NCBI RefSeq assembly: GCF_000189635.1
Contig: NW_002476022.1
Coordinates: 281,505-345,504, forward strand
Direction: 5' to 3'
DNA: 64,000 nucleotides
Source of the DNA: Tetrahymena thermophila SB210
Lineage: Eukaryota; Ciliophora; Oligohymenophorea; Hymenostomatida; Tetrahymenidae
Below are positions 36,201 to 64,000 of the stretch, piece by piece. Under the pieces are notes generated by a model, which did no database searches, was not told where the DNA came from, and worked only from the letters and a program-made list of their open reading frames with translations. Made by a program: the position numbers and the translations under genes. Position 1 is the first letter of the stretch. Each line of letters opens with the position of its first letter.

Positions 36201-36699
36201 CAATTAAAAATTAGGATAGTAACAGATGATCGTAGGGAAAGACTTAATAAATAACAATAATATCTAATATCACCGAGATTTTCTAGATGTACAATTTGAG
36301 CATTGCAAAAAGTAAACTCCAAGATAAATTTCTCACCATAACTCAAATTAAAATTAATAAAATTTATAGTAATAATAGCAACTATAATAAATATAAAGCT
36401 AGCAACAGTAAGCATAATCTGTTTTACAATAATAAGGAATTAATACACATTCTTCTTCTTATGCAAAGCTGATAGTAAGCCGTAGCACGAAATTTTCCAA
36501 TAAAAAACAATAATAGGAATGCTTCAAAGAAATATAAAAATGCCAAACACCTCCACAAGATCGTAGAATGAATGACTTAGTAAAAAATATTTAAAATGTA
36601 TCTTATTATGCTTTACTTGAAGAAAAATTTAATAAAAGATCTAAAAGCTCATAAAAAAAACCTGTATTCAATTAGAATTAATTTTTATAAAACAAATGA
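33296..36699 (+). CDS. RING plus B-box (TRIM-like) protein, 1114 aa
   Basis: Exon 33296-33447, intron 33448-33506 (59 nt, phase 2), exon 33507-36699. The RING finger is split by the intron: C17-x2-C20, C32-x-H34-x2-C37-x2-C40, then CPSC at 74-77, giving the C3HC4 order. About 480 Gln/Asn-rich residues follow. A B-box type 2 then sits at 576-608 (CKEH, YC587, LLC595VNC598, H605, H608), and a coiled coil at roughly 625-720. RING, B-box and coiled coil in that order is the TRIM plan; RING proteins of this kind are usually E3 ubiquitin ligases. The very long linker between RING and B-box is unusual. The last ~390 residues are low-complexity. Confidence 0.88.
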
Positions 36700-38326
36700 T
36701 TTCTATAGAATAAATATAAATATATAAAAATATGTACATATAATTTTTATTTTAAATAAATAATGTTATTTCTCATTTATAAATTTATAAAAAACTAACT
36801 TCTCTAAAATAATAAATAATATTTTAATTAATTCAAAAATTTAGTATTAACTTTGATTGGGTTATTAAGACAGATTATGCAGTGATATAAATATAAATAT
36901 TTTTTTATATTTTAATTTAAATACTTGATTAAAAATGATAAATTATAATTAATAAAAATGATGTTAGTATGAGAATTTATATACTTTATCCTAATAATAA
37001 AAATTGATATTTTAAATGTTTAATTATTTTATTTTTAAATAAAATTTAAGCAATTAAATTAGACAATTATTTATGACAAAAAAGAATCGTTAATTATATT
37101 TAAATAGATGTGAATAATATCGTTAGAATTTTTATGTCAAATTAATGTTAAAATTTGAAATGATAGAAGGAAAATAATGGATTAATTGCAAATAATTAAA
37201 AAATTAATTCATTTTAATGTTAAAATTTTATAATTTATTCTCTTAAATTCAATTTGATAGGGTCGGATAAAAAACCTTAATTCAAAAAACATTTAATAAA
37301 GTTTTATTTTTAGCGACTTGAGCTGTGATTAATTTAAGAAATTTTAATACTAAATTTATTTATCATTTTAACCACAAATTATTGGATTGAAATATAAGCG
37401 CATTTATCATAATAACAATTTAGTAAAACTTAATTCATATTTTTATATAATATATTTCAATATGAATTGGATTTGAGCACTACTTAATTACTAGAAATGA
37501 AATAGCATTGTAAATACTAAAATTTATAACCTTTAGAACCACTTTTTAATTTGTGTGAATAAATATTAACTATTCTGGGTTAACTTCTAAAATTAATAGC
37601 TCATAATTTAATTTACTAAGAAGATATCACTAAATTTAGAAAATAAAATTACTCACTTTCTATAAAAGATATGGCTTAACTTTTTTTGATTTTCACAAGC
37701 TAAATACTATTTTTAAATGTTAATTCATAGAAAACCATAATGATCTCCCCTAGGTAAATAAATTACCTGGATAGAATTTTTAATCTAGTTAACTTAGGGT
37801 ATATAGGATTCAATTATACTTTATTATATGATAGTGTATAGTATTATAATTATAATTACACAATATTAGAATATGAAACGAAATAATAATACTTAACTGA
37901 GACATCAACTTACTTTTTTATATTTAAAAATTGGTTAGACTTAGTATAGAATTATTTTTACTGTATTTCAAACAAAAATCCATATTATTTTAAAAACATC
38001 TTCAAGAGAGTGTAAGTGCCATTAAAATTTATTTAAAATTAAGAAAATAAAGTTTACTTTTTATAAAACTTAATACTCTTATTTTTAAAAAATTATTTAA
38101 AAATTCACCACACAGCTTCAAAATTTTACATTTTAAAGTAAGTAACAAAAATGTTATGTTTTACACTGTTGAATTTTTTAATGCATTTGTATTAAAAAAT
38201 AATAGTATACTTTTTTTTAAGTGTTTAAGTTAATTTAATCATTTTGAAATTTTTAAATCCAAAAAAAAAGTCTATGTATTTTTAAAAACTTTTAAATATA
38301 TATTATGAAATTTGCGTAAAATATTT
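36700..38326. other. AT-rich spacer upstream of tRNA-Sec
   Basis: No coding frame of convincing composition. The last 40 bases carry the TATA-like element of the tRNA gene. Confidence 0.6.
38296..38304 (+). promoter_or_regulatory. TATA-like element of tRNA-Sec
   Basis: An ATATATATT stretch centred about 27 bases upstream of the tRNA start. tRNA-Sec genes in animals use an upstream TATA box as type 3 Pol III promoters; position fits, but AT runs are common here, so this is inference. Confidence 0.4.
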
Positions 38327-38413
38327 GCTTTGGTGAGTTGGACTGGTGTCCAGGACGGGCTTCAAACCCGTGGGTGTCGAAAGGCACAGGAGTTCGATTC
38401 TCCCTCCGGAGCG
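38327..38413 (+). tRNA. tRNA-Sec(UCA): Selenocysteine tRNA, anticodon UCA
   Basis: An 87-nt tRNA with every hallmark of eukaryotic tRNA-Sec. It has a long acceptor stem of 9 positions with one U-U mismatch (GCUUUGGUG with CUCCGGAGC, then discriminator G). The D stem is an extended 6 bp (UUGGAC/GUCCAG, including one G-U pair) closed by a 4-nt loop. The anticodon stem ACGGG/CCCGU holds loop CUUCAAA with anticodon UCA. The variable arm is long and paired (GUGUC/GGCAC, GAAA loop), and the 4-bp T stem GGAG/CUCC has loop UUCGAUU. CCA is not encoded. It is charged with serine and converted to selenocysteine to read UGA at SECIS-directed sites. Confidence comes from the whole cloverleaf, not only the anticodon. 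Confidence 0.97.
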
Positions 38414-38414
38414 A

Positions 38415-38420
38415 TTTTTT
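38415..38420 (+). terminator. Pol III terminator (T6)
   Basis: A run of six T residues beginning two bases after the discriminator base, the usual RNA polymerase III stop. Confidence 0.8.
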
Positions 38421-39779
38421 AGAGAGAAATTAATTGAATATATAAGATAGAGAAAAGTTTGAATATCAACAAATAAATGCAAAATGTATTGTTGTCATAT
38501 AAAGAATTAAAATTTAAATTTCATTAATATATTAAAAAGCAATACAGAAGTTGGTTGATTATAATAGATTGAATGGGTTTTTAGCATTTTTTTTTTGAAA
38601 AATGTCAGAGATTGCTAAAATTGAATACATATTTTATTGAAAATTGCAATGAAATTCATTATATATTTGTCTACACCAATATATATATTAAGTTAATTTA
38701 AAACTTACCCGTTCGCAGTTTTTAAATTTGTAGAATTGGAATAGAGAAAGGAAGAGAATATTCGTTTTATTTAAAAAAGAAATCTATTAGTAAATAAGCA
38801 AAAAAGTCCTATTATAATTTATAGCAAGACACTATTATTTTTAAATATAATATTTAAAAGTGATAAAAAAATATTACCTTTACTAAAATTTGTATTCTTA
38901 TAACTCTTCGATTCCAAGATACTTTGAAAAAATTAATATCTTCAAGATATGTCTATTGCTGTATCAAACTTTTATCTAAATATTTATAAATTTTTTGAGA
39001 CAAATAAATTTTTCTCTTTATTATAATTATTGCTGTTTTGTAATTTGAAATTTCAATAATTGTCAAATGTAATCAAATTACAATACAAACTCCAGTGTTT
39101 ATTTGAAAATTAAAAATCTTTTCACTAAAATGTTTTAGATTTTTGAATAGATATTTGCATATTTTTAATTTTTATTTCTTCAAATATTCATTTGAATACT
39201 TATTGCTCTATAATTTTATAATAATGGATTAACATATGTAATTTATAATCAATAAAGGATTTAATTAGAGGAATAGACAGATGGCTTTGATAATATTAAT
39301 CATTTGTGAATCACATATGAAAGAATGTGTGCTAATAAAGAATATAGTATTCAAAAATACATGTTAACAACTAGTTCTAAATTATTTGATGAGATATTAC
39401 ATGTAACATTAAACACTATTAGCATACCTTTAAACTTTTTGTCTTTTTATTTTTATACCTAAGTAATCTACAGCTGAATATTCAGGTATAAGTCAAGGAT
39501 TAAAATTACTTATATTAAATTATGATAAATTTGATTACCAAATTTAGAGTAAGCAAACCATTTTATCAATTCTTCAATTTGAATAATTATTAATAATATT
39601 TTAACAAATTGGTGCTATTAAAAATCAATAATAAGCTTGCTTTATCATAAAATTGTGCATTTTATATTTTTATTGTGATTTACATTGATATATAAATAAA
39701 TAATACTATACATTCAATATGTAATGAAGTAATGAAAACTTCCCCCTCTATCTTGGAATGAACAATAAATCATAATAAA

Positions 39780-39870
39780 AAACTCCATACGAAATTCTAA
39801 CGAGTAGAGCTCGTTTTAAACATATGTTCAGTTTCCGCATGCAGACTCTATCTTTGTGGGCATTTATTTG
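39780..39870. ncRNA. Possible small structured RNA, unidentified
   Basis: A local GC-rich island in AT-rich DNA containing the hairpin AACGAG-TAGAG-CTCGTT and the palindrome GCATGC. No box C/D or H/ACA arrangement is convincing, and strand is unknown. Listed only as a place to look. Confidence 0.2.
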
Positions 39871-42286
39871 TGGAGAATTATTATAATATATCAATGATGT
39901 ATTATCTATCTATTTTCAAATGTAAATAAGTTCCTTTCATTCAAATTTTTTGTATCTATAAATTTGCATTTGCGTAATAAGCATATAAAATTATTGAATA
40001 TTTATTCCAATATCAAATTTTATTTTAATTTTTATTCTCTATCTATCTATCAATCAATCATGTTAATACTATAAATGCGTAATTAAAGAAGATCGTTGCG
40101 CAAAATTAAACCTGATTAAATACTTTTCTTTCATTACATGCTTTCAAAATGAGCTGTTTTGTGATCAGCTTTTTTAATTCAGCGAAACCCAATACTAGAA
40201 TTCTAAGCATAAAAATAGTACAAATAACAAGGAATAGATGCATAATCAGCAGCGAATCAAAATAAAAGAAGAAATATCTTTTAATTAATTAAATAAATAA
40301 ATGCATTCATTGATATTGTTAAATGGATTCTATATAGGTGGATTATTAGATTTAGTAGTAAAAAAAATATATGGATTTTTATTCAATTTTAAAATAGAAA
40401 AGAGTGATTAAAAATTAAACAAGCTTCTTAAATTAAAAATCTATAAATGGAACCAAGCAATAGAAAACATTAATGAATGAATTTTTAATCTAATCCATTA
40501 AAATGTAATTAATGTGTAAGATTGACTCAATTCTAAAACTTTACATTGCTTTTAGCATAAAAAACTTGGTTTAAACATTTTACAGGATTTCTAAATATAG
40601 GAGAATTGACTTTGTTCATAACAATTTAATATGTGAACACATTTACATCTGCTTAATATGACACATTCAATTTTATCAATTTTAAAACCAGAAATTTTGA
40701 TTTAGCTAAAAGCCCCTATATTTAGTAAAAAAATTTTCTTTGAAAAGTAATTAGTATTTATTTGCTTTTTTAAATTAGTTTTGAGTATTTTTCTTTTCAT
40801 TTATTCGCTTTCAGTCAAATTTTATTGGTTTTCTCTCAGTAAAAAAATCCTCATCAAAGTTTGAAATTTGGAGATTATTTTTCTAAACTGGTCTTTTCTT
40901 GATTTAACTTTTTTAACTGTCATAATTATTGTGTTTCTTAAAGCATTTAGTAAATTTACTAAAATCCTAACAAACGTAAGCTATTATCTCGATTACTTAA
41001 ATTAAATTTCCTAGATTTTTATTTTTAATCTAGCAAAAGTTACTGCTCTCAAATATTATTAGACAAATATTTTTGACTAAAATTAGATCTGAATCATGTT
41101 AAATCACTTTTCCCATCATTTTTTAAAATAAACAATGTGATTTTGTTATAAAAATATCATCTTTCAATTTTTTGAATTTAAAAATTGTTAAGTGAATGAT
41201 TTTTTGTATTTTAATGTAATTTTATTAATTTCTTTTGGTACAACAAGTAACTTACGTAAGGTGCCGTCTTATATCAAATAAATCGTATTAAAATTTAAAA
41301 AGCTTGTTTTGGTCTTTTTGTTAGGGTGGCTTAATTAACTAATTAGAAATTTTACTTCGTAAAGAAGAACTACTCAATATTGTAACTATTAGGAAATATC
41401 TAATTTTTCTATGAGTATTAATCTCCATTCAACGTTCGAATATATTTTTTAGAACCTGATTGCCTCTATTTATCCCATTTAAAATCATCTATCGTAAATC
41501 ATCATATATTCAAAATATCTTCTTTTGTATTTTCTTAATAAGTGAATTTTTTAAAAAATACGAGCTAAATAATGGGAGGAGAATTTATTTAATTTATCCA
41601 AAACAATAAAGGTCTGAGAAGTGAAAAATGTGAACTCTTATTTTTTAATAGATATTCAAATAGATAATGAAGTTGGAGACAAAGAAAAAAAGAAAATAGC
41701 GAGAATGGTTAAAATCATATGAAATTACGATAAAGAGAAGAATGATATACGAATTTAATATGCAAGTACTTAGTTTGAGAGATACATTACGATAGAAACT
41801 ATTAAGTGGTGCAATTGAAAAATATAAATACGTCTTTGAATTTCTTATGAAATTTATAAATTAAAATAAATAGCTAATTAGGGGGCAGGGTAAATCTAAT
41901 AGAAAAAACAAAAGTGAGAGAAAGAAAATATTAAAAACTAATTAAAAGGGAAGGTAAAATTCACCTTAAAACGCCAAACAATTAATCCTCTTCTCTTCTA
42001 TTTAGGTGACTGATTAGAAAGAAAAAAAAAGTGAGTATTCAAATTTAATTAAAAAGGGGAAAATCATAATAAAATATAATTATTAATTGATCAAATTAAA
42101 TAAATAATTTCACATTCTTTTTCATTTGGTAACTAACTAACTAACAATTGATCATACAATTGTTAAGAGCACAGTCAAAAATACTTTGAAACTGTTAAAT
42201 CTCCTTCACAAATACACAACACTGAGCATTTTCTCAGGAATCCTTAAAATCTTCTATCCTCCGTGAACACTAAAGCACACGCGAAA

Positions 42287-50569: not shown

Positions 50570-53500
50570 TCATAACTCTTTATTAGATTTATTTCTATTA
50601 TTATTATTAATATTATTATTTTAATGGGATTTAATTCTTTCATCTAGGCATAATTAGTTATACTTCTTAACAAATTCGCTATAATAGCTTTTAAAATATT
50701 CTTCAAATTGTCTTTATTAATAAAATAAAAATTAGCTATAAATAAATAAATAATCAATCATACTTTTAAAATAAAAAAATTTCTACCAAAAAAAGCTTCA
50801 TATTAAAAATAAAATATATATTTAAAGAACAAAGAATAACAATATAAATTTATATAGAGAATAAAAAATATTCATAAAATATAATAAGAAAAAATATATT
50901 GAGTTAATAAATAAAAAAAATTTTTTATTTCTATAAAAATGATAACAATAATTCAATCAAATAAAATAAATAATAAATACTTGTTTGTTAAAGAATATTT
51001 GAGCTTAGGTCTGGTTGGTGCTTCAGACATATTTGCAGCAATCTGAGATACTATTGAACCAAAAGGCAAGTGGTCTTTAATAAATAACTCTTTATCCCCT
51101 TTTTGTATTTATATTTTAATGGTATAAATTAATAAAATTTATCTTACTTGTCATAGGTCTTTTCATTCTTAGTCTTTAAATTCTTTGTGTGTACTACACT
51201 TCCTCTCTCTTTTGTAATTTACTTAATTGCTCTTTATTAGTTTTAATCATTAACTCAGTTCTTTACAAATTAACGATCTTTTTATTCTACAGCACAAACT
51301 ACTCTAGATTTGCTTTATACACTTTAAGTTTATCATAGAATTCTTTCGTTTACTTTTTTATGTGTTATTCTATTAAATTTATTTTTTAAATATATATTAA
51401 AATTTTTTCTTTATTAATTGAAATATTTTATATTTAAAAATATTTGAATCAAGCTCTTAACTCTTATAAAAATATTTGAATCAAACTCTAAACACTTAAA
51501 AAAATATTTGAGTCAAACTCTAAAAAACATTTTTATCTTATTAAATTAAAAATTATTTTTAATAAATAATTTTAAAAATAAATGTTTATAAAAAATTAAA
51601 AATAAGTTAAGATTTTTTATTTAAAATAAGTTAAAATTTACTAATAAGTTTGATTTTAAGGTCTAATTCCAATTTAACTGCTTTTTAGTTAATCCTCTAA
51701 TGTATTTCTTCGCTGCCATATTTTATTTTAAAGTTAGGAGGCAATATAAAAAGATCCCCTATAGTGAAAACAAATTATTTTTAAATGATAAAGTTTTTGA
51801 ATAAATAATAATAAGTACTGTGAACTGTAAAAGGAAGAAGTATTTCGCTCTGAGATTAAACTAAACTTTAAGCAAACTGCTAAGTAAATGATGTATTCGA
51901 TCTATTTCCTTTTAGAATATGCTTTTGAGTCTAAGTATTTGTTTAATCATTTGCACTTTTTAACTAATCAGGATCTATATACATTTAATTACTGTAATCA
52001 TTAGTGATGGACATAATATTAGGTATTATTTTCCTTTTTATAATAAAAAATTAATAAACTTGAATATATTTCTAAAAATTATTTACAAATTATTTTGAGT
52101 AAATTATTTTGCTTCATTAATTCCTATATTTAAAAGCTTTTAAATAGACTTATTTTATTTAAATTATTTGAAGTCAAAAGAGCTTGCTGGCAAAATAGAA
52201 GATCGTTAAGCATTTAATTGTGTTTCCTCTGCACTAATCTTGCTTACTTTTGATTATATTTACAAAATGAATAAAAATATATGCACAAATATATTTTTAC
52301 CTTCAAATGATTACTGTCCACCAAATTTAAATTGTGACTTGATCATCCTGGTAATTTCGTTATCTTATAATTTAAAGGTAGAAGTCATATAGTGATCCCA
52401 TTTATCAGAGTAAATTCTAATTTAAGATAGTTGCTAATGTTGACACCACAAAATAAATTTTTAAATGCTATTTATAAAAATTAGTAAGTTAAAATTGGCA
52501 ATTAGTTTTAATTAAATTAAAGATTTTTTTAATTTAGATTTTTTTTTTGAATTTAAGGTTTTTGTTTTAAAATAAGTTTGAATTAACTTTTTTATTTGAT
52601 TTAACATGAAAGCGATCCTTAGTTTTGTGATTTTCTATATTTTTTATACTAGAAAATGCCTACAAATTATTGAGCAAGCTTCTCTCTTTTTTTTACTATT
52701 TCTTTTGGTGACAAATCTTAAGATGACTCTTTAAAAAAACAATTTAACTTTATAGCTCATTTTTGCAATAGTTTTTTTATTCAAGATGTAATTTCTAAAG
52801 TACCTCTGAATTTATGTTGCACATAAATTTTTTCTAAACATATTTTTTTTCCTTTCTAATGCATGATATTTTAAATCACCAAACAACTTTAAAATTTATT
52901 CTGCTGTTAATAAAGTAATTAAATTTTTCTTTTTTGTCTGTAAATACTTATTCAGTTCTTATTTTTATTAAAGAATTTCTATAAAACTTTTTCTTCTTTT
53001 ATCTAATTATTCTTAGTATTTGCTTATCTTTTGTCTCAATAAATCTTCGCTTGTTAGTATTGCTTTCAAAGTTTTTTCTTTAAGGACTAGAGAGTTTTCT
53101 TATAGTTTTTATAGCTTTTGCTCTTTTGACAATATGGGTTTCTTTTTTAAGCTCATTTCATGCAATATTTTATCTATATCTTTGTGAATTTTTATAGTTT
53201 TTTCTCCGTTTTTTTAAATTTATTTAATATTTTTCAGCTATGAGCAATAATCAGGGAATTTTATCATACACTCTTTTTTAAAATATTAATTTTGCTTATA
53301 AATTTCATATTAAAATTGATCTTGATCTACTTCTGTTTATTCTTGCTTCGTTATTGATCTTAATTTGGTTATTTATTCAAAAGAAAATTTTTTCTGAGAA
53401 TCTTTAGCGTTCCTTGTAGTTTAGGAATAAAATTTGTTGTTCTGAGTTTTATTTTAATTAGAATTAATAGGATCGCTCAATAGATATATCATGTGCTCTT

Positions 53501-56500
53501 GCTCTTAATTTTTTTCTATTATATCTAAATACTCTTTCTTTAATAAGATCTAACGCAATTTTTCTTTGTCATTAGAACATAACTCTGCTTCTTTTTATAA
53601 CTATTGAGATAGCTCAGAATCTTCAACATATTATTAGCTAATTTTCTAAAATAACTTTTTAAATTTTCTTTAAGATTCAATTGAAATCTAATTTTCCTAA
53701 AGCTTTTTAAAAGAAAGATATTCTAAAGAATTTTTATTTTGTTAACTAAGTATAGACGAAATTGTATCACATTTATTTAAAGGAAAGTAATTTGGATCTT
53801 TTTATTCTTTTTAGATTATTAAATCTGAAATCTTATCAAAGTTATACGAAGCAAGGAATCCCTAATCTTCATCTATCTCATTTATTTGAATTTCCTGACT
53901 GATGTTTGATATCAAGTTCTTTTTATATTACCTACTCTAATTTTAAAGTTCTTCTTTTAGTTTTTGTTAGTGTTAAATCTCTTTAAACTTTTTAATTAAC
54001 TTTTCTCTTTCTTAATCTGTTTTCCATTAACACCTGCTCAAATATTCTAAAACTTCTGATTATTCTTATTCTTCTTTTTTTTCAGCAAAGCTTCTCGTTG
54101 AGTAGAATGATGATATTCTATTTTTATTAATTTAATACATTTACTTAATTTAAGATTTATTTTGCTAGTTAAGATTTTGATTATTAATTTTTTCTAAAAC
54201 TTATTCATTTTATTTTTATTCACTTTAATTTTACTCATAAAACTATTTCATGGTTTATTCAAAAGACTTGTTTATTGATCTTTAGGAATTAGGCAAGTTA
54301 TTTTCTTCAGTTTTTTTTATAACGAATTACTCTAACTATCCTGTGTCATTCAAATTGAAAGAAGTTTTTCTAGCAGTTGATATGTCTTAATCTTTCGAAT
54401 CAATTGAGAATTAAAGAACATTCTTCTAGATAGTTTTATGTTTACTATAGTCTTTTAAATCTTGACTTTTCATAGTTATTGATTGTTATGTATATTTTTC
54501 ACCAATGTCATTTTAGGTTCCGATTTTAGTTTAATTTTATGATTATTTTTATGTTGTCTCAACAGTTTTAGTTTCCTCTATTTATTGCATCATCAAGCCA
54601 AATTTAGTTTTCTTATCTGTGCTGAAATAATCTTTTTAAGGTTATTATTTCATATCATGAGCTGATTTATTAATTTACAGATCAATTAATTTTTTGTGTC
54701 TTGATGTTAAGCTATGAATATTCTAACTAGAATAAATGTTGTTTTTATCAAGATTAATTTTATTTTTGCTTCCAAAATAATAATGATTTTTTTAGTTGTT
54801 TGACTTATTGCTTACAGTTTAAGTATTTTAATTGATATCTATACGATTCTATATTGATGTTGAAGATGCTACATCTTATTATGGTTATAAGGAATATAAA
54901 GAAAAATTAGCCTCTTGTTAAGAGGCTTGCTAACTTTCATAATTTTTTATTGCATTTTAAAAATTTAAGTTGCTTGTTTAGTTGATAGGTTCATTTAATT
55001 TATTAATAGAAGCTATATAATTTTATGAATCACTATTAGCTTAAAATCCTTTTGGTGATTTATTTGATATTTATATTTATTCGTCTTAAAAATTAAACTT
55101 TTATTAACTAGAATTATATTTTGCCAACTATGATTTAGGAGTTTCTGGATTTTATTAAATTTTCGGACTAAAAACACTAGATCTATTTCTTGAGCTCTAG
55201 GAGCCTTTCCTTTCTAAACTATTATATATAGTAGCTTTTCTTTTAGTGTACTACCTAATTAAATCTATTTAACCTTTTAATTCTGATTAAACAAACTTTA
55301 TGTATCTTTAATAGTATTTTGATTCAGTAAGTTTAAATTATTTTTTTGAAGCACAAACAACTGTTGTAAAGTTAAGTCCACAGTCAACATCTAGGATAAA
55401 GTAATTTAGAAATTATTCAACCAATTTAGGTTCTTAAACATCAAAAATATACTATTTTATATAAAAGAAATATTTTTAATATTTCAAGAATAATTTCATG
55501 TAAAATTTTTATTTATTTAAAAATAATAATTAATTTGTTAATTCTTCTAATTAAAATAGCACTTAATAATAAAAATACTTATTTGACATAAATAATTTTT
55601 CCAAATGCTTATAATAAAATTTAACTATGTCGTTGTTGTTTTAGTTTGTTTTTAAATTATTTGAATTAATTAAAAATTTTTACAAATTCATCTTGTTTTA
55701 AAGTTTTTCTTAGATCAGGATGACCTAAACATTCTTAAGAATTATCTCCCCAAGTAAAGAGTCGTCCAAACTTATCTATAGCTGCACAATGAGAGTATTT
55801 TCCAGAAATCTTAATGAAATTAACATCTTAATTTTAAATCTTGATATCAAATAAAATGGGCCTATATTCTTCTGAATTTTATGATTTTGGCTTTTTTCCA
55901 GTTTAGTCTACAAATTTATCAGAAGCATTTCCTATACCCCAAGTATATAAGTATCCATCTCTAGTCAAAGCAACTGTCTCTTTAAATGTGCAACAAACTT
56001 AAATAATAAATTCTTCTTTTAATTGTTCAACCTATTTAAAATTCTGTTCATAAATTATTAGATTATAATTTATTTTACTTTCTTTGGTGTTTTCTGTATT
56101 TCTTGTCTCATCAATGCCTATTAATAAGGATGACCTAATTTTCCATCTAAAAAGAGTTTAAAAACTAATGAAAATATTAAAATAAAATACATTGAGGATC
56201 TCCCCAAGTATAAACCTAGCCTTAATTATCCCAAGCAGCACAGTGATCTTTGCTACAAGATATACCTTCAACTTTTATAGTCTTTTTAATTCATAAATTA
56301 TTAGAAAAAAACAAAAATTTTTATTACATTAAAAAATGGCATTATCTAAGGTTCAATTATCTCCTTTTCCTTCTAGCCTATTCCCATTTTATTATTTTAA
56401 TTCAGACCAAAACAAACTATGTGCTTATTGTCTAAAACTCCACAAAACGAAAAATTCGTACCTGCTGAAACTAAAGATACTTTAGGGTAATCATATAATA

Positions 56501-59216: not shown

Positions 59217-61139
59217 TCAATTATAAAGATATTTCATAACATCTCTAGCATAATTAGTATGAGCTAGACCTGCATCCGCAAGTGCAGAACTAAGTCTATA
59301 TCTCATATCTTTCATTAGCTGATTAACACTATAACCATGGACTTTAGTGAGCTCAACTTTATCAGCTTTATCTAATTAGGTTTACTGTTTAATAACCAGT
59401 GCTTTGGTTGGTTTCTTAAGTCTGTTAAAATCTGCCTCAACTTTTGGACGAAATTAATAATTTTCAATAGCCTACTCTATTCTCTCTTCATTTAACTATT
59501 TTTATTTCTCTATAAGCTCCTTTTAGTATGCTTTCATTTATATTTTTTCAAGTTCATAATCCTATCTAACTTGTACTTTATCTTTATTTTTAAGAACTAT
59601 CTCTTTTTACTCTTAAAGTTACTATTTACGTTTTTCTTCTTCAATATATCTTTATTTCTCTTCCTTTATTTTCTTCTAATTTTCATATTCCAACTTTTTT
59701 TATCATCACAAAAATAAATAAATAAAAACCATCGAAAATAATTTACAGCTTTTTGTTTAGATTCCTTGCATCTCTAATCATAAATTTCTTTCTTCTTCTT
59801 TTCTTCTAACTACCTTTCTTCTTCTAGCTATTTTTATATTTCTAACTTTTACTGCTTTTTATGATTAAAAAGCATTCTCTTTTACTCTAACTCTTCTTAA
59901 ATTCTTGCTTATTCAATTTGAGTTTACAGTTTTTCTGCATTTCTTCTATTTTCTTCAATTTTTTGTGCTAGCATGTCTTAAATTTGTTATTCTGCCTTTC
60001 TCTTAAGTTCTCTCCTTTCTGAGAGGTAATTTCTGTATAAGGAATCTAGCTTCTATTGCTTATACTCACTATTTTATAAAATACTATCCATAACTTCTAA
60101 CACCAATTTTTTAACTTTTGGAAAGTGCAACGATAGTCTTTCCATGTAAAAATCTCTTTCCTTGCCTTTCATATTATAACACTTATATATATGCTTAAAC
60201 TCTTCTAAATTTTCATTCAACCTAAAAAACTCTGGTGGTTCTGTTCTCCCTTTATTTTCATACTCTTCTTCAAGTTTTTAAATTTCTAAATCATATCTTT
60301 CATTCATTAACCTAAGAGCTATTTATTAAAAATTAAACATATATATTTATATATTAAAAATAGTATTCCAAGCTTATTTTACCTTTTTTATATTAAACAA
60401 GCAATTTTTTTTCTTCAATAACTACTTCACCATCTCCTTAAAAAACTTTCAAATAATTGATAATTTCGTCTTCATCCTACTCACTATTATCATTTTCTAA
60501 GAGCAATTACAATTTCGGTTTAGACGTGCTTGTAACAGATAATGCATCATCATTTTATAATAAAAATTCTTATTGTTTATCTCCAACAATATCATCTAAA
60601 ATTGCTTCTTAATCTAATCTATAATTTTCCATTTGCATTTATTTATTTGTTTTTAATATTTCATAATCCTAATTAACAATTTCTTTACTTTAAAGTAAAA
60701 ACTTCTTTATATCTTAGTAAAGTTCATGTAGAGTTTTGAAATCTATTTATTTATTTGATTTTATTTTTTACACAATATCTCTAAAATTTCTCACTTAATA
60801 CCAAATATTTAGCTACAAATTATCACGCTGAGAGATTAACTTTTCATTTAAGCTAAAAAAGTTTTTATTATGATCCTCTTTCTCTTCTTCAAACTATTCC
60901 ATTAGCTTCAAAGGCCCTATTAATTTATCTATTTATATGCAAGTGTAACCAATGTCATTTGTTAGCGATTTTTCTAATTTATTCATCTTAAGCATATCTT
61001 TTTACCATTCTAGCTTATGAGCAGCAAGTTAATTTTTTTTTTTTATTTCCTAAGATGCTTTCTTAAATTTTGTAAGTTTTTCTAAGAATTGCAAAGAATC
61101 TTGCTCTTATTCTTTGAAAGAAGCTTTTATGCTTTTCAT
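59217..61139 (-). CDS. CCDC148-like coiled-coil protein, 601 aa
   Basis: Exons 60383-61139, 59747-60318 and 59217-59693 with matching phases; 602 codons. The protein is helical from end to end, with long Glu/Lys/Gln coiled coils (DMLAQKIEENRRNAEKLQ, KEIYDQRCKESKQKALEYEN). It ends in a compact conserved-looking block: FRPKVEADFNRLKKPTKAL, then VHGYSVNQLMKDMRYRLSSA and LADAGLAHTNYARDVMKYL. From memory of the family, vertebrate CCDC148 is about 590 residues and ends in a similar pattern (arginine-rich, AL..AGL..T.YA..V), so length and C-terminus both fit. CCDC148 is poorly characterised; a ciliary link would be a guess. Without a search the assignment stays tentative; the gene model itself is firm. 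Confidence 0.85.
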
Positions 61140-63757: not shown

Positions 63758-64000
63758 GGGGTTGGGGTTGGGGTTGGGGTTGGGGTTGGGGTTGGGGTTG
63801 GGGTTGGGGTTGGGGTTGGGGTTGGGGTTGGGGTTGGGGTTGGGGTTGGGGTTGGGGTTGGGGTTGGGGTTGGGGTTGGGGTTGGGGTTGGGGTTGGGGT
63901 TGGGGTTGGGGTTGGGGTTGGGGTTGGGGTTGGGGTTGGGGTTGGGGTTGGGGTTGGGGTTGGGGTTGGGGTTGGGGTTGGGGTTGGGGTTGGGGTTGGG
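63758..64000 (+). repeat. Telomere, about 40 GGGGTT repeats
   Basis: Perfect GGGGTT repeats for 243 bases running to the end of the sequence, joined directly to unique DNA after ...TTTTTCT. The G-rich strand runs 5' to 3' toward the end, the correct polarity for a right-hand telomere. The array reaches the window edge, so total length is a minimum. Confidence 0.99.

Follow-up and report, generated by a model that had tools for sequence, protein, structure and literature searches.

The tRNA-Sec gene of Tetrahymena thermophila, a possible U6-like promoter in its 5' flank, and the SECIS of two GPx genes

The window analysed here, a stretch of 64 kb of the Tetrahymena thermophila genome, makes up the right-hand end of contig C396. 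It closes on GGGGTT telomere repeats (63758-64000) and therefore represents a macronuclear chromosome end, with a tRNA-Sec gene (Table 1) about 25 kb from the telomere. Around the gene, positions 36700-42100 are AT-rich (21% GC) and form a gap between two neighbours, a B-box zinc-finger ORF of 1,075 aa with its end at 36699 and a protein-kinase ORF (stop to stop) that starts at 42152. Codon scores gave no coding stretch between 36699 and 42152, and the gene is likely to be isolated, this being short of proof because the kinase ORF escaped the same score.

Both strands of the window were searched with 4,227 Rfam families (cmscan, Infernal), and the single match at the gathering threshold was the tRNA-Sec model RF01852 (38327-38412, plus strand; 68.6 bits for a cut-off of 47; E 6.5e-12; model positions 1-91 of 91), a family that covers all domains of life and not eukaryotes alone. 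Unconstrained folding yields an MFE cloverleaf with an acceptor of nine positions carrying one U.U mismatch at pair 8, a 6-bp D stem with a UGGU loop, a 5-bp anticodon stem with the loop CUUCAAA, a 5-bp variable arm closing on GAAA, and a 4-bp T stem. Eukaryotic tRNA-Sec have a 9-bp acceptor, a 4-bp T stem, a 6-bp D stem, and a long variable arm, all of which are found here with the one mismatch. The initial annotation had described a full UCA-anticodon tRNA with 9/4-type arms at this place, and both the cloverleaf and the covariance score, which is far from pseudogene-like, bear this out. The folding energy alone is unremarkable (z -1.82, with 11 of 200 shuffles equally good), so the call rests on the covariance score; ARAGORN, set to its bacterial mode, detected no tRNA in the window.

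Table 1. Features of the tRNA-Sec locus (window coordinates).
Feature	Position	Strand	Basis
Degenerate PSE-like element ATCCAAAAAA	38257..38266	+	candidate; starts at -70; 8/10 to ACCCATAAAA of the U6 and telomerase RNA genes
TATA-like element TTTAAATATATATTATG	38291..38307	+	candidate; 34 nt past the start of the PSE-like element, spacing as in U6 genes
tRNA-Sec gene, 87 nt	38327..38413	+	RF01852 match and MFE cloverleaf; G at 38413 as discriminator, no encoded CCA
Anticodon TCA (reads UGA) in loop CTTCAAA	38362..38364	+	sequence, cmscan alignment
B-box-like internal promoter AGTTCGATTCT	38391..38401	+	2 mismatches to GGTTCGANTCC
T6 run, a probable terminator for Pol III; one base past the discriminator	38415..38420	+	sequence; terminator role predicted

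Four U6 genes (-63 to -65) and the telomerase RNA gene (-61) have ACCCATAA in common. Counted from its start, TTATAA lies at +34 in all four U6 genes, TTTAAG at +33 in the telomerase RNA gene, and TTATAA at +34 or +35 in five loci that had been chosen by that same pattern. The upstream TATA-like element pointed out initially in the tRNA-Sec flank proves to be TTTAAA, at +34 from the start of the PSE-like element, a weak test in so AT-rich a flank. Scored as a PSE, the tRNA-Sec site obtains 7.5, against 16.8-22.3 for ten ACCCATAA sites and at most 5.1 in 37 tRNA flanks. A composite PSE and TATA model, trained on seven loci with the tRNA-Sec locus left out, gives it 12.6, against 18.4-24.4 for ten type-3-like loci (own group left out), five of which (L018-L020, L035, L036) had been chosen by the pattern itself; the U6 and telomerase RNA genes, which were found independently of it, reach 18.4-22.0. 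This independently trained model replaced a promoter count in which TTTAAA was accepted as TATA, a choice made after sight of this locus and thus post hoc. The pattern alone is not specific, because its U6-type form occurs at 73 places in the genome vs 99 for the reversed pattern. Scans for bacterial promoters and terminators, which are not applicable to a ciliate, were at chance level or empty in the flank.

A PSE-like site matching at just eight of ten positions, with a PSE score that 1.4% of 9,840 background stretches in the window reach and a composite score below those of all ten type-3-like loci, leaves room in a flank of 21% GC for another explanation, namely that the internal A and B boxes alone drive transcription and the upstream likeness arose by chance in AT-rich DNA; we give this somewhat less than an even chance. 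The controls argue against such a coincidence, since 12.6 is reached by none of 37 control tRNA flanks (highest 9.8), many of which belong to tandem arrays and cannot count as independent, and by 12 of 9,832 overlapping stretches of the window (2 of 816 in the gap), sets that both include the locus itself. So does the weakness of the B box: its consensus is GGTTCGANTCC, from which the tRNA-Sec gene departs at 2 positions vs 0 or 1 in all eight other tRNA genes tested. The best A-box match has 2 mismatches in the tRNA-Sec gene, as in tRNA-Ser, and 0 or 1 in the remaining six. The weak copy of PSE and TATA in the 5' flank suggests that the gene may have, like vertebrate tRNA-Sec genes, an external promoter of U6-like kind, and judging from sequence features the chances are about even that the flank is a degraded type-3 promoter.

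Vertebrate tRNA-Sec genes have a type-3 Pol III promoter, according to the accessible part of PMC4671959. They share the 9/4 fold and the UCA anticodon with the Tetrahymena gene, which has its candidate PSE and TATA upstream. A point of difference is the degenerate PSE-like element, which begins at -70 (its counterparts in the T. thermophila U6 genes begin at -63 to -65); the use of this element as a promoter is predicted. If the flank does hold a type-3 promoter, then the switch of tRNA-Sec to this promoter type is not confined to animals. No paper on the promoter of the Tetrahymena tRNA-Sec gene was found among the literature matches listed, judged by title and start of abstract.

Clusters of U6-type PSE and TATA pairs do stand out in the genome scan, at G000:C13:1103749-1105639 (L018-L020), C390:84399-86140, C283:177484, and C114:1625805 and 1626733 (L035, L036). 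At L018-L020, L035, and L036, RNAs of roughly 100-130 nt with a T run at the end could arise from the DNA after the promoters, and four of them were folded (z -3.83, -3.43, -1.22, and -2.55). Rfam gave no match up to E 5 for L018, L020, and L035, and none up to 0.01 for L036; these five loci are possibly unnamed Pol III RNAs.

We are highly confident that 38327-38413 is the functional nuclear tRNA[Ser]Sec gene of T. thermophila, decoding UGA as Sec in SECIS-bearing mRNAs. Another tRNA-Sec locus would have weighed against the initial annotation, and the genome (101 Mb; 53 of 1,208 candidates scored) has one locus above the cut-off among the ten matches listed. Eight of the other nine have 44.5 bits each and are all tRNA-Ser genes (anticodon tga; ARAGORN tables, L002-L006); the tenth, on C60, has 36.1 bits. 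The locus is very likely the sole tRNA-Sec gene of the species. That it is a pseudogene or relic, the active gene lying elsewhere, is very improbable: the acceptor mismatch, the shuffles that fold equally well, and the fraction of genome candidates scored could speak for it, but the match is full-length and far above the 47-bit cut-off, the anticodon loop, T loop, and T run are all intact, no second locus exceeds the cut-off among the matches listed, and selenoprotein genes still carry UGA at their Sec sites. Just as improbable is an opal suppressor (e.g., a UCA-anticodon Ser tRNA) inserting Ser or another residue at UGA in general; the 44.5 bits of the tRNA-Ser genes with the tRNA-Sec model do show that the two tRNAs are related, but against a suppressor stand the 9/4 fold, the 6-bp D stem, the complete model match, the presence of SepSecS and SECIS-bearing genes in the genome, and the extension that every protein would presumably undergo with UGA as the sole stop. 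Shrimali et al. (pmid 15721286, as cited in PMC2612030, PMC7409322, and PMC7600574) reportedly described in 2005 a T. thermophila tRNA-Sec of the same organism, anticodon, and role, and because one locus exceeds the Rfam cut-off, the functional tRNA-Sec gene identified here is probably theirs. PMC7409322 gives 94-98% identity for the tRNAs of T. malaccensis, T. elliotti, T. borealis, and Ichthyophthirius. Both the gene and the double meaning of UGA have been in print since 2005-2008 and are no discovery, and the accessible part of PMC2612030 states that the tRNA-Sec of T. thermophila is expressed.

The reading of TAA and TAG as Gln, with UGA as the only stop, had also been proposed from the window and agrees with two lines of evidence. 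First, in the eight longest non-overlapping window ORFs, one of which (59323-60831) is without further support as a gene, there are 513 in-frame TAA and 170 TAG vs 194 CAA and 57 CAG. Second, the conserved domain of SepSecS, found at one locus in the genome (PF05889, 426.7 bits, profile positions 1-387 of 389), reads through eight TAA and one TAG in frame, which is stronger evidence on the code than the codon counts. The Sec synthesis genes in the genome comprise this SepSecS and an SPS2 locus with its own Sec UGA.

The mechanism would be the standard eukaryotic Sec pathway operating within a single-stop-codon genome. Pol III would transcribe the tRNA-Sec gene, ending at the T6 observed here; the tRNA would be charged with serine, and the Ser-tRNA would become Sec-tRNA via the SepSecS route, with a predicted contribution of PSTK. 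An eEFSec and an SBP2-like factor, genes for both of which are reported for T. thermophila in the accessible parts of published papers, would deliver the Sec-tRNA to UGA in the few mRNAs with a SECIS in the 3' UTR. All remaining UGAs, including the terminal UGA of selenoprotein mRNAs, would terminate translation. The SECIS would thus set the meaning of UGA for each mRNA and, within one mRNA, position would decide, the Sec UGA coming first and the terminal UGA and SECIS after it. One codon serving as sole stop and as Sec, which is known, shows the reach of 3' UTR signals in separating both meanings.

Five of the six published selenoprotein loci were examined, the SECIS of the sixth being too short for the search. 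The T. thermophila SECIS of PMC2612030 are identical to the genome over 93/93, 86/86, 95/95, and 102/102 positions, and that of SPS2 at 98%, in agreement with the initial assignment of the gene to Tetrahymena. It had also been argued that UGA must be both stop and Sec codon at SECIS-marked sites, and this layout is seen in all five loci (L013, L076, L077, L079, L080), where a UGA at the Sec site is followed by a terminal UGA and then by a SECIS whose core starts 61, 63, 64, 118, or 194 nt past the terminal UGA. Exons were joined for the two GPx only, the frame ends of TrxR and SPS2 being read by eye, and the identity of the SECIS rests on published SECISearch calls and our own hairpin rule, the latter not specific. 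The Sec contexts are VNVACK-U-GLT in both GPx and LKG-U-GCK in SPS2. TrxR TTHERM_00047660 reads GGC TGC TGA GGT TGA (SGC-U-G-stop), and in two TrxR genes a single codon separates the Sec UGA from the stop UGA, which is known. The second, TTHERM_00486500 (L080, about 1450-1470), ends DSC-U-A-stop, the other TrxR examined ending SGC-U-G-stop. GPx TTHERM_00279820 ends in two successive UGA (TGATGA). In the five loci, G is the next base after the Sec UGA in 5/5 cases and after their terminal UGA in 0/5, compared with two of 11 window ORF ends; the G after the Sec UGA may be protein-driven, because Sec precedes conserved Gly or Ala codons. A second match to a GPx SECIS (L078, 77%) was rejected, with no ATGA core in the stretch shown and no GPx frame by eye.

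The hint that the window itself might encode selenoproteins found no support. The SECIS scan that had been suggested gave 19 SECIS-like hairpins on both strands, within the background of six Markov controls (9, 18, 8, 14, 17, and 23), and no selenoprotein family was found among the 20 ORFs given to Pfam, out of 179 window ORFs of at least 150 aa. The hairpin rule recovers 6/6 published SECIS and gives three hits in L013, one of which is the known element; a stricter version (5/6 recovered) gives three hits in the window, of which none, judged by eye, falls in a plausible 3' flank. One of the 19 hairpins, on the minus strand at 50801, is located some 0.7 kb beyond the stop of the ORF 51513-55964. 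Rfam reported no SECIS in the window, a null that is worthless because the same library missed the known SECIS of L013 and its SECIS_1 model gave no match genome-wide (132 of 1,998 candidates scored). An open frame past the terminal TGA is likewise useless as a selenoprotein test, because 11 window ORFs have their next in-frame TGA 11-230 codons further along.

Two papers, both of 2020, describe a puzzle in the GPx of T. thermophila. The accessible part of PMC7409322 states that TtGPx12 (TTHERM_000279829) contains Sec yet no SECIS and that TtGPx10 (TTHERM_000141169) carries a SECIS without Sec and without significant GPx similarity; that of PMC7600574 likewise gives Sec without SECIS for TtGPx12, the statement on TtGPx10 being in only one of the two, as far as their accessible parts go. 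We infer that these are the re-numbered TTHERM_00279820 and TTHERM_00141160 of PMC2612030, because L076 and L077 fit them in the number of introns (one and two) and in the UGAA/UGAA core that TtGPx10 has; Sec and SECIS are already listed for both genes in the accessible part of PMC2612030. At L076 (around G000:C167:244857-244942) the DNA encodes a Sec-GPx (VNVACK-U-GLT ... PCNQF ... IPWNFSKF), and the published SECIS (100% match) has its core 64 nt past the stop. L077 (around G000:C65:150678-150772) is a second one, with the motif VNVACK-U-GLT and a SECIS core 118 nt past the stop. Read through the UGA, both match PF00255 (120.3 and 137.9 bits), L077 with a full GSHPx domain at 120.3 bits, and the UGA of the latter aligns with a Cys of the GPX4-like designed chain 9jl9_A, which we take to be the catalytic position. 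Since the DNA holds two Sec-GPx genes and both come with a SECIS, the puzzle seems to be an artefact of annotation and SECIS detection, the gene models used here being drawn from our own exon joins. Gene models and SECIS detection would explain TtGPx12 (and TtGPx10) better than a SECIS-free mechanism and, if this is true, the published Sec insertion without SECIS does not exist in T. thermophila. A literature search on the name TtGPx10 returned PMC7409322 only; a correction under another name would escape it. The full reading, in which the tRNA-Sec gene has a promoter of U6 and telomerase RNA type with weakened internal boxes and, separately, both GPx are genuine Sec-GPx with SECIS, seems to us evenly poised between true and false.

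Bacterial tRNA-Sec have an 8/5 fold, and the SECIS lies beside the UGA. Role and anticodon are as in Tetrahymena, which differs in its 9/4 fold, the presence of SepSecS, and a SECIS that lies in the gene's 3' flank. An exact pattern scan for related tRNA-Sec gave one locus among genome contigs (L081), rejected with neither an Rfam nor an ARAGORN hit, and one among viral contigs (L082). No DNA similar to L082 was found in 50,697 phage records. This viral locus, at 748-837 of L082 (IMGVR_UViG_3300032038_006501, an 86-kb viral contig), is a tRNA-Sec-like gene with a UCA anticodon (RF01852, 50.0 bits for the cut-off of 47) that sits among 12 tRNAs in a row (ARAGORN) and has 19 exact bases in common with the tRNA of the window.
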